Both the position numbers and the translations under genes were made by a program. A stretch of DNA of 36,107 nt from Chloroflexota bacterium. GTDB lineage: Bacteria > Chloroflexota > Anaerolineae > Aggregatilineales > Phototrophicaceae. The notes beneath the pieces were generated by a model. That model saw only the letters and a program-made list of their open reading frames with translations, did no database searches and had not been told where the DNA came from. How positions within the stretch are numbered: the first letter of the stretch is position 1; the number at the start of each line of letters is the position of its first letter. The DNA lies in the NCBI GenBank assembly GCA_009840575.1, contig VXNO01000056.1, positions 1-36,107 of the forward strand, read 5' to 3'. Positions 20,249-23,857 of this stretch are shown here, in pieces.

Positions 20249-21721
20249 ATGGTCAAGCGATTCCCGCTCGTAGCGCTCTGCCTACTCTTTATCCTCAGCG
20301 CAGCCCCATTTGCGCTTGCCGATGCTGATTGTGATGCCGATTTCTCTCACTATGCCCGCGCCGTCCAACTGCATGATATGGGCGATTATGCCCGCGCTCT
20401 GCGCTACTACAACTGCGCGCTCGCGGCGGATCCCGCAAATCCCACCATTCCTCTTCTGATTGAAAACCTGCGCGAAGACATCGCCAGCGCGCCCCATGCT
20501 TGGTCGACTGATGCCACCGTCTGCGACGCTAGTAGCGACCATGTTCAACTCGGGCAAAGCGCTTATGCCCGCGGCGACGAAGACAGCGCCCTGGCGCAAC
20601 TGCAATGCACGCTGCTTGTCAACCCGGGCGATGCCGAAGCCGCCGAGCTGATGGGGCATATCCACATCAACCGCGGCAACACGCACATCGCCAGATACTA
20701 TTATGACCGCGCCGCCACAGCCGCTCAAAAGCCCGCCCAGCCCGGCTTCATCATGCCCGACTGGCTGACTCCCTACGAAGTCGCGCCTGCCACCAACCAG
20801 CCTGCGCGCTCGCTCACGTTTTTCCCCCAGCGCGTCTATGTCCTGTCGCGGCTGACTATCCAACCGCCGCCGCCAGCTAGCCAAGACGCGGGCTTGGGAT
20901 TCGCGGATTACATCGACTTTGCCAATTGGTTCAGCAAACGCGGCGAATGGCAGCGAGTGGCAAAATCGCTGGCGCGCGCCCTGGAGCTGCAACCCTATCA
21001 TGATGATATTCGCTGTCGCCTGGGCATGGTCTATCAGTCGCTGGGCGATGACAGCGCGGCGCTGGCGCAATTCGACTATGTAATCTCCCGCGACCCCAGT
21101 CATATCTGCACGAGTGGGAACCGCCGGGCGATGCTGCGCGCAGCCAATGCCGCCCCACAAAATACCGCGTCCGCGCCACAAGAAGTCTCTCCCGCCCAGC
21201 CCATCGTGGAGCGCGCCTTGACTTACCACGATGCCAACAAGCTCTTCGCGGCCGCCAACACCTTTATCGAAGCGCTGGCGCTTGACCCCGCGCATCACCA
21301 GGCGCGCTGCGAACTGGCGACTATCTTCAGCGAATGGTCAAACTACGGACGAGCCCTGCGCGAGTTCGAGCGCATCCTGGCTCATCAGCCAGCGGATGCC
21401 TGCGCAATCGCGGGCCGCCTCGCCACAGTCGAGAAGCTGCTGGATATGTATGTGCCGCTGGTGGTGGAGGACTACTTCTATCATGCGCGTGAATACCTGC
21501 GCATCGACGCCTGGTCGCAGGCGCGTGAGGCGCTGGAGCTTGGCTTGACGCTTGAGCCGATGCGCCCGTATATGCGCTGTCAGCTGGGCATGGTCGCTTG
21601 GCAGCTCGGCGATACCAACTTCGCCTTGGCGCAATTCGACCGCATATTGATGAACGACAGCCAGGACGCCTGCGCCGCCTCAAACCGTGATGCGCTGATG
21701 CAAAGCCTGCGCGGCGAATAG
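20249..21721 (+). CDS. Exported TPR protein with five cysteine pairs
   Basis: 490 residues. ATG 20249 follows AAAGAAGG and starts a signal peptide (MVKRFPLVALCLLFILSAAPFALA) cut before DAD; the track start 16 residues earlier lacks these. The mature protein has TPR-like helix pairs, e.g. QLGMVAWQLGDTNFALAQFDRIL and AVQLHDMGDYARALRYYNCAL. It has ten cysteines arranged as five pairs, two with C-x27-C and three with C-x30-C, one pair per repeat unit, so each unit may be held by a disulfide. A poorly repetitive region (about residues 180-235) contains aromatic and Pro-rich sequence. Probably a scaffold outside the membrane; partner unknown. The next gene encodes an exported thioredoxin-like protein. 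Confidence 0.85.
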   Translation: MVKRFPLVALCLLFILSAAPFALADADCDADFSHYARAVQLHDMGDYARALRYYNCALAADPANPTIPLLIENLREDIASAPHAWSTDATVCDASSDHVQLGQSAYARGDEDSALAQLQCTLLVNPGDAEAAELMGHIHINRGNTHIARYYYDRAATAAQKPAQPGFIMPDWLTPYEVAPATNQPARSLTFFPQRVYVLSRLTIQPPPPASQDAGLGFADYIDFANWFSKRGEWQRVAKSLARALELQPYHDDIRCRLGMVYQSLGDDSAALAQFDYVISRDPSHICTSGNRRAMLRAANAAPQNTASAPQEVSPAQPIVERALTYHDANKLFAAANTFIEALALDPAHHQARCELATIFSEWSNYGRALREFERILAHQPADACAIAGRLATVEKLLDMYVPLVVEDYFYHAREYLRIDAWSQAREALELGLTLEPMRPYMRCQLGMVAWQLGDTNFALAQFDRILMNDSQDACAASNRDALMQSLRGE

Positions 21722-21793: not shown

Positions 21794-21823
21794 AAAAAGG
21801 GCATACTGGGTATGCTCTTTTTT
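21794..21823 (+). terminator. Rho-independent terminator in the leader of the thioredoxin/NHL gene
   Basis: AAAAAGGGCATAC and GTATGCTCTTTTTT form a hairpin with a TGG loop and a T-run. It lies 72 bases after the TPR stop and only seven bases before the AGGAGG site of the next gene. It could end the TPR transcript or act as an attenuator. A looser inverted repeat, GCCCAGC/GCTGGGC (21750-21781), precedes it. Confidence 0.7.
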
Positions 21824-21841: not shown

Positions 21842-23857
21842 ATGAAGAAATTGACGCTCATCGCGCTGGCCTTGCTGCTTTTGACTGTCTTCGCGCAGGC
21901 GCAGCGCCCCCCCGAAGAAATATATGAAAGCGACTATATCGCGCCTGAGTTCCCGCCTGGGCTGGACTGGATCAATATCGACGAGTCGCTAACCGTCGCT
22001 GGCTTGCGGGGCAAAATCGTCATCCTCGACTTTTGGACCTATGGCTGCGTCAACTGCCTGCACATCATCCCGGTGCTGGAGCAGGTGGAGACCAAATATG
22101 CGAACGAAGTGGTGGTCATCGGCGTGCATTCCGCCAAGTTCGATAATGAGGGGCAGACCGAGAATCTGCGCCAGATTGTGCAGCGCTACGAGGTACATCA
22201 TCCGGTCGTCAACGACCACGAATTCGCCATCTGGCGCAGCTATGGCGTGAATGCCTGGCCCACCGTCGCTGTCATCAATCCGCGCGGCAACCTGGTCGTC
22301 CGCCAATCGGGCGAGGTGCCTTTCGAGGCATTCGACACCTACCTCACCGGCATGATTGAGTATTATGACGGGCTGGATGACACGATCATCGACCGCACTC
22401 CCTTGCAACTGGCGCTGGAAGGCGCGAGCGACCCGGGCACGCCGCTGCTCTTCCCCGGCAAGGTCTTGGCGGATGCCGCGGGCGGGCGTCTCTTCATCGC
22501 CGATAGCAGCCACAACCGCATCGTCATCGCCGCTATGGATAGCTATGAGGTGCTGGATATCATCGGTTCCGGCGCACGGGGATTTGCCGGCGGCAGTTTT
22601 GAAGACACGCGCTTCGATAAACCGCAGGGCATGGCGTTGGATGGCGACTGGCTCTACATCGCCGATGTCAACAACCACAGCATCCGCCTGGCGGATCTGG
22701 GCGCGCGCGAGGTTATCACCCTGGCGGGCGACGGCATTATGGGCCGCAGCCGCCACCCCTTCGGAGAAAATATCCCCAACCCGCTGGGCGTCTCGCTGCG
22801 CAGCCCCTGGGATGTCGAGCTGGATGATGCTGGCAGGCTGCATATCGCCATGGCCGGCACGCACCAACTGTATATCTACGAGCCGGGCAGCAATCGCTTG
22901 TATCCATCGGTCGGCAATGGGCGCGAAGCCAACCTGAACGGCGTCAGCCTGGCAAACAGCGAACTCGCCCAGCCCAGCGGCCTCTATTATGCCGGCGCGG
23001 GAAAATTGTATTTTGCTGACAGCGAAAGCAGCACCATCCGCCTGGCTGACTTTGAGCAGGACTTGGTCACCGTCGTCTCCGGCACCACCGAAAACAGCCT
23101 CTTCGATTACGGCGACATCGACGGTGAGCTAGGCGAGAATCGTTTGCAGCACGCGCTGGGTATCGAAGGCGCGCCCGATGGCAGCTTGTACATCGCCGAT
23201 ACCTACAACAGTCGCATCAAGATCATCCCGCCCGGCGAAACCCGCACGGGTACGCTCGCCGGGCTGGGTGGCGCGGGTGGCTATGCCGATGGACCAGCCA
23301 GCCAGGCGCAATTCGACGAACCCGGCGGCTTGAGTTATGCGGACGCCAGCTTGTACATCGCCGATACCAACAACCATGTCATCCGCCGGCTTGATTTGGC
23401 CGCTGGCACCGTCGACACCGTGCGTTTCCCAAATCCAGAAGCGCTGATTATCAATCCTGAGGCGCTGACTCTGCTGGGCGGCAACCAAAGCGATGATGAG
23501 CTAACGCGGCTGGAAACGCAGCAAGTCGCCGCTGGCGAGGGCGCGCTGACCCTGCAACTGAGCTTCGCCGATGCGCTGAAGATCAATCCGCTCATTGATA
23601 GCCAGTTTGCGCTTACGATGGATGGCGAGGCGCAGCTAGAGGCGGTCGTGACGGAGAATGTGCTCAGCCTGCCCATCCTGTTTATCGAGGGCGGCGGCAA
23701 CCTGCATGCGGAGTTGACGCTTTATTATTGCCGCGAAGGGGCGGAAGCGCTGTGCTACATTGAAAGCGCCCGCTGGGAGATTCCCTATGCAACGGCGGGA
23801 ACATCAGCGCAAAGCGAGATCCTGCTGGCGCGGCAGATTGATGCGCCGGAGCTATAA
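21842..23857 (+). CDS. Exported thioredoxin-like/NHL beta-propeller protein (NHLRC2-like)
   Basis: 671 residues. ATG 21842 follows AGGAGG with 6-base spacing and opens a signal peptide (MKKLTLIALALLLLTVFAQA). Residues about 45-180 form a TlpA/AhpC-type thioredoxin fold with the redox motif CVNC in DFWTYGCVNCLHIIP and the cis-Pro region YGVNAWPTVAVI. From about 190 to 550 come NHL-type repeats with LYIADTNNH and LFIADSSHNRI motifs, a beta-propeller; a C-terminal beta domain of about 110 residues has two more cysteines. This matches bacterial NHLRC2-like proteins, here exported. Its substrate is unknown; the neighbouring Cys-paired TPR protein is an attractive but unproven candidate. Confidence 0.9.
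   Translation: MKKLTLIALALLLLTVFAQAQRPPEEIYESDYIAPEFPPGLDWINIDESLTVAGLRGKIVILDFWTYGCVNCLHIIPVLEQVETKYANEVVVIGVHSAKFDNEGQTENLRQIVQRYEVHHPVVNDHEFAIWRSYGVNAWPTVAVINPRGNLVVRQSGEVPFEAFDTYLTGMIEYYDGLDDTIIDRTPLQLALEGASDPGTPLLFPGKVLADAAGGRLFIADSSHNRIVIAAMDSYEVLDIIGSGARGFAGGSFEDTRFDKPQGMALDGDWLYIADVNNHSIRLADLGAREVITLAGDGIMGRSRHPFGENIPNPLGVSLRSPWDVELDDAGRLHIAMAGTHQLYIYEPGSNRLYPSVGNGREANLNGVSLANSELAQPSGLYYAGAGKLYFADSESSTIRLADFEQDLVTVVSGTTENSLFDYGDIDGELGENRLQHALGIEGAPDGSLYIADTYNSRIKIIPPGETRTGTLAGLGGAGGYADGPASQAQFDEPGGLSYADASLYIADTNNHVIRRLDLAAGTVDTVRFPNPEALIINPEALTLLGGNQSDDELTRLETQQVAAGEGALTLQLSFADALKINPLIDSQFALTMDGEAQLEAVVTENVLSLPILFIEGGGNLHAELTLYYCREGAEALCYIESARWEIPYATAGTSAQSEILLARQIDAPEL

Follow-up and report, generated by a model that had tools for sequence, protein, structure and literature searches.

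Can a TPR solenoid be stapled module by module with disulfide bonds once it has left the cytoplasm? Descriptions of natural TPR proteins do not usually include disulfides. The question is raised by a gene on a contig of a Chloroflexota bacterium, which was analysed over its full 36,107 nucleotides (hereafter the window) and which encodes an exported TPR protein with regularly spaced pairs of cysteines.

Cysteine pairs and helices of the exported TPR protein

The gene starts with an ATG at 20249, preceded by an AGAAGG ribosome site, stops at 21719-21721 and encodes a product of 490 amino acids. The N-terminus of this product (MVKRFPLVALCLLFILSAAPFALADADC) corresponds to a signal peptide with predicted cleavage near the ALA/DADC junction. 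We rejected C28 as a lipoprotein cysteine, since there is no lipobox and the preceding residue is D or E in nearly all homologues. Only TPR families matched the protein above the Pfam cut-offs (TPR_2, E=4e-19 and 67.5 bits for a cut-off of 27; TPR_1, 5e-18 and 64.5 for 27.8; TPR_9, 1e-16 and 60.8 for 35), and by these curated cut-offs the protein is a member of the TPR family. The named TPR families of NCBIfam all remained below cut-off (PilW, 69.9 vs 154; PrsT, 57.5 vs 312.2; MamA, 48.8 vs 200). The nearest PDB chains were those of designed consensus TPRs and of O-GlcNAc transferase. A fold search of the PDB with the whole protein yielded generic TPR solenoids only and weak global superposition (TM ~0.2), which is expected of a protein built as a flexible string of modules. 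The features of the gene are as follows.

20249..21721, + strand: gene of the exported TPR protein, with its stop codon (open reading frame and translation, Pfam, Met start common to homologues)
20249..20323, + strand: signal peptide, residues 1-25 (MVKRF..FALA; from the sequence, with a hydrophobic N-terminus conserved in homologues)
20330..20416, + strand: x27 unit 1, C28 and C56 at TPR positions -2 and 26 (both invariant in 25 aligned homologues)
20522..20608, + strand: x27 unit 2, C92 and C120 (kept or missing as a whole among relatives)
20948..21151, + strand: module 3, helices 234-247, 252-265 and 268-281, cap 286-301, with C256 (position 5) and C287 (position 2')
21242..21445, + strand: module 4, helices 332-345, 350-362, 366-379 and 384-399, with C354 and C385
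21512..21715, + strand: module 5, helices 422-435, 440-452, 456-469 and 474-489, with C444 and C475

One cysteine, Cys11, lies inside the signal peptide. The mature protein has ten (28/56, 92/120, 256/287, 354/385 and 444/475), with pair spacings of x27, x27, x30, x30 and x30 in this order. These residue positions bear out an earlier note on this DNA, which had counted exactly ten mature cysteines arranged as C-x27-C twice and C-x30-C three times. Within the family, conservation is highest in the first x27 unit.

We modelled the protein with AlphaFold2 from 25 sequences (mean pLDDT 76.7, pTM 0.45). The model presents tandem antiparallel helix pairs of ~34 residues, with pLDDT of ~75-96 over most of the solenoid and low-confidence, disordered linkers at residues 162-214 and 302-307. 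It comprises nine TPR-like hairpins and four single cap helices (66-84, 286-301, 384-399 and 474-489). Because there are five cysteine pairs for nine predicted hairpins, the rule is one pair per module rather than one per repeat as previously proposed; about half of the TPR hairpins have no cysteine. Based on Pfam numbering and the predicted helices, the x30 cysteines fall at TPR position 5 and at position 36, i.e., position 2 of the next helix, and the x27 cysteines at TPR positions -2 and 26, i.e., ahead of helix A and within helix B. The second x30 cysteine thus belongs to the first turn of the next helix rather than to the end of helix B; the note had placed it just after the second helix. 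The note had also suggested that each helical pair is closed by its own disulfide. This description holds for the x27 units, in which the segment ahead of helix A would be tied to helix B of the same hairpin, and fails for the x30 units, whose bond would run from helix A to helix A' or a cap. In these units, the bond would connect position 5, in the first turn of helix A, with position 2', in the first turn of the helix that comes next, which is often a cap. Positions 2 and 5 are among the variable concave-face positions of TPRs (PMC1261162). In the model, the x30 staple would therefore span a whole TPR on its concave side and clamp it there together with the cap.

Conservation, gain and loss of modules

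Within the genus, 32 of 34 genomes yielded homologues, the exceptions being G010 and G023, and a further scan of named genomes provided 26 loci. Outside the genus, the homologue search returned weak generic TPR matches only. When a profile of the x30 unit was compared with 400 Chloroflexota genomes, it matched only the source genome itself and, weakly, two other loci (E ~1e-10 to 1e-9); a quick look at the ORFs of these two loci found no regular cysteine pairs. As far as these searches reach, the cysteine-paired TPR family is confined to one genus.

The stapling idea of the earlier note came through a check for homologues that do not conserve the cysteines: x27 and x30 pairs hold 252 of the 261 mature cysteines of 33 non-redundant homologues. 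Random placement of the cysteines (2000 trials) left on average 10.5 of them, and at most 26, in such pairs, a comparison that serves as a yardstick and not as a p-value since the homologues are related. The pairing is far beyond chance. Six of the nine remaining cysteines form three x32 pairs in a single genome (G033), two belong to locus L063 and one to locus L044. The two unmatched cysteines of L063 (8001-9092) are located at an apparent frameshift in its last unit. In L044 (7965-9551), the partner of the lone cysteine has been replaced by Gly (RGELGM), which indicates that an unpaired cysteine can occur, at least in a MAG. Both the frameshift and the half-lost pair are found in MAG sequences and may be errors.

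The number of pairs per homologue varies from two, in a protein of 273 aa, to 12, in one of 1492 aa. The largest (L036, 2937-7412, - strand) has 24 mature cysteines, with the three x32 pairs among its 12, and is encoded away from the thioredoxin-NHL gene described below in the largest genome of the genus (G033; 8.5 Mb). Several short homologues (L049, L053, L054 and L056) have an ORF that stops a little way past the third cysteine unit, suggestive of a loss of C-terminal modules. It could be argued that the disulfides run between different modules or between two chains and do not close the individual units: a protein that is secreted might become cross-linked as part of an assembly, and pairing within the unit is itself an inference. 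We consider this distinctly unlikely. The units vary in number independently, each adding an even number of cysteines; the relatives with two pairs possess one x27 and one x30 unit that are widely separated; and bonds between modules or chains would not need a fixed x27 or x30 spacing.

We also scanned the homologues with the x30 unit profile after masking its cysteine columns. This recovered 72 units that carried the full pair, a single unit lacking it altogether (L057) and another that had kept just one cysteine (L044). The degenerate unit of L057 (RDIRRELD...VDAPERS) has lost both cysteines by substitution and is the sole double substitution seen. Module changes were then counted on the tree of the neighbouring thioredoxin gene, from which L044 is absent. 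At least 14 gains or losses were observed and none of them split a pair: units 2, 3, 4 and 5 changed state at least 3, 2, 5 and 4 times, respectively, always pairwise. These changes alone do not prove bonding, since they are mostly whole-module deletions, which remove both cysteines whether bonded or not. On the sequences compared, each module carries a complete cysteine pair.

It is also conceivable that the cysteines are unbonded and owe their conservation to plain inheritance, the repeats being young duplicates, and the restriction of the family to one genus would fit such an origin. This explanation is highly improbable given that the units have diverged (to 19-75% identity with one reference unit) and yet retain an invariant Arg-Cys and an invariant second Cys, with no other invariant columns. 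In addition, the TPR proteins have diverged far more than the product of the neighbouring gene (38-77% vs 67-86% identity).

Disulfide formation and the thioredoxin-NHL neighbour

The source genome encodes VKOR (E=6e-24) and has five matches to the DsbA-like family Thioredoxin_4. We further compared cysteine parity across 486 kb of the genome, using a crude finder of genes and signal peptides on a sample that includes the TPR protein and its neighbour: an even number of cysteines was found in 20 of 24 cysteine-containing exported proteins vs 87 of 194 other non-membrane proteins (Fisher p = 4e-4). This excess supports the routine formation of disulfides outside the cytoplasm. The genome contains further exported cysteine-rich proteins, such as L139 (658 aa, 12 Cys) and L143 (562 aa, 8 Cys), without the x27/x30 pattern.

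Each unit offers two cysteines and one invariant neighbour, the Arg ahead of the first, and could in principle bind a metal or a cofactor. The units present no conserved His or further Cys and no CxxC or CxxCH, and the protein is exported by an organism with disulfide machinery, which makes such binding very improbable. Judging from their sequence pattern, it is highly likely that the disulfides form inside each unit. Their formation would take place outside the cytoplasm, with the VKOR/DsbA-like system as the probable catalyst. Overall, we favour with good confidence the view that the protein is a Sec-exported, extracytoplasmic TPR scaffold of small modules, each locked by its own disulfide. 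The general proposal of the earlier note, that an exported TPR solenoid has a disulfide in each of its units, fits the all-or-none pairs, the export, the oxidising machinery and the conservation across the genus. With a staple of its own in every module, the protein could gain, lose or shuffle modules and still have no cysteine left unpaired.

Downstream of the TPR gene, two further features were identified.

21801..21823, + strand: terminator-like hairpin GCATAC-TGG-GTATGC followed by TCTTTTTT, between the TPR and thioredoxin-NHL genes (direct reading)
21842..23857, + strand: gene of an exported protein with a thioredoxin-like domain (CVNC), an NHL propeller and a SOQ1-like C-terminal domain (Pfam NHL 2e-21, Thioredoxin_8 1e-16)

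The hairpin was also flagged in its minus-strand version. The C-terminal beta domain of the neighbour contains a second cysteine pair, a conserved C-x7-C, and a model of this domain matched structures of SOQ1, a quenching protein of plants, in Foldseek (7djl, E=4e-9). This bacterial SOQ1/NHLRC2-like thiol protein is widespread in the order. Where the loci reach far enough, its gene is followed by HtrA, EamA and ThrRS genes. On the other side of the TPR gene, the aminotransferase and SerA-like genes found 5' of 20249 are not upstream in relatives, where in most cases a different set of upstream genes is conserved; this comparison of gene order indicates a rearrangement beside the TPR gene in the source lineage.

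The neighbour raises the possibility that the cysteine pairs act as a reversible redox switch, being reduced or reshuffled by the thioredoxin-NHL protein in a manner that alters the binding groove. This thiol protein, with its CVNC motif and second cysteine pair, is encoded directly downstream of the TPR gene in 26/26 named loci, and the x30 cysteines occupy positions that are counted as ligand-binding in TPRs. The association nonetheless has exceptions. In other families, the thioredoxin-NHL gene is widespread, with different neighbours and without this TPR gene; within the genus, the two genes of G033 are not adjacent, and in G023 the thioredoxin gene is present but no TPR match was obtained. 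The hairpin separates the two genes in the window, and the gaps between them measure ~45-200 bp by called starts. We therefore did not adopt a tight operon of the two genes and consider the redox switch unlikely. With non-absolute linkage and a hairpin between the genes, a functional partnership is possible but unproven, and the neighbour is a possible redox partner of the TPR protein. G023 was also rejected as a clean empty site, its upstream gene being unrelated to those at the other loci.

Sponge setting and comparison with known systems

A close relative, MPMG01 (bin20), presents 71-76% identity to the TPR protein over two matched segments and originates from the sponge Aplysina aerophoba (PMC5649159). 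Judging by their names, the MAGs labelled COS, CAR, RHO and APA match the sponges of another study (PMC8163846). Sponge symbionts are enriched in eukaryote-like repeats, TPR proteins included, and these repeats have been postulated to mediate contact with the host (PMC8163846, PMC6306507). On the basis of habitat and fold class, the TPR protein may have a role in host interaction. We tentatively suggest, as a possibility somewhat short of even, that the protein serves as a stable scaffold for binding, placed on the cell surface or beyond it, and that it plausibly does so in life with a sponge host. The more elaborate idea that the staples occupy the ligand groove of the TPRs and are acted on by the SOQ1/NHLRC2-like neighbour, making the protein a redox-gated, module-shuffled extracellular scaffold that sponge symbionts turn towards their host, is speculative and improbable.

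What appears to be new from the sequences is a genus-specific, exported TPR family that is in all likelihood stapled module by module; the fold itself was already known. Staples carried by each module, with both cysteines gained or lost together, would illustrate how a solenoid adapts to life outside the cytoplasm. Positions 5 and 2' would constitute a testable cassette for stabilising designed TPR proteins. More generally, the family suggests that one Chloroflexota genus, with sponge symbionts among its members, has an exported scaffold of its own that evolves fast.

Across the open-licence papers searched, we found no description of cysteine-paired TPR cassettes, and a search there for disulfide-bonded TPR repeats turned up only Sel1-like/Hcp proteins and P58IPK. 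The present protein resembles the eukaryote-like TPR proteins of sponge symbionts in that it is an exported TPR protein from a genus with sponge-symbiont MAGs. Canonical TPRs share with it family membership and helix pairs but lack the cysteine pair at positions 5 and 2', and the x30 pair was absent from the PDB chains among the unit-profile alignments listed. P58IPK/DNAJC3, a protein of the ER lumen, also has disulfides within the solenoid of a TPR domain that resides in an oxidising compartment. These are two only, Cys248-Cys258 and Cys313-Cys329, involving helices 12-13 and 15-16 (PMC3143134), and unlike the pairs described here they form no repeated cassette. HcpB and HcpC of Helicobacter are likewise exported alpha/alpha solenoids with one disulfide per repeat unit. 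The distinction from such HcpA-type, Sel1-like proteins that the earlier note had drawn was upheld: Sel1 was absent from the 19 Pfam matches of the protein (E up to 1), and Hcp proteins are built of Sel1-like repeats of 36-38 residues, whereas the 490-aa protein has TPR repeats with x27/x30 spacing. In terms of sequence positions only, the placement of its cysteines (5/36 or -2/26 in TPR numbering) also differs from that in Hcp proteins (PMC3851747).
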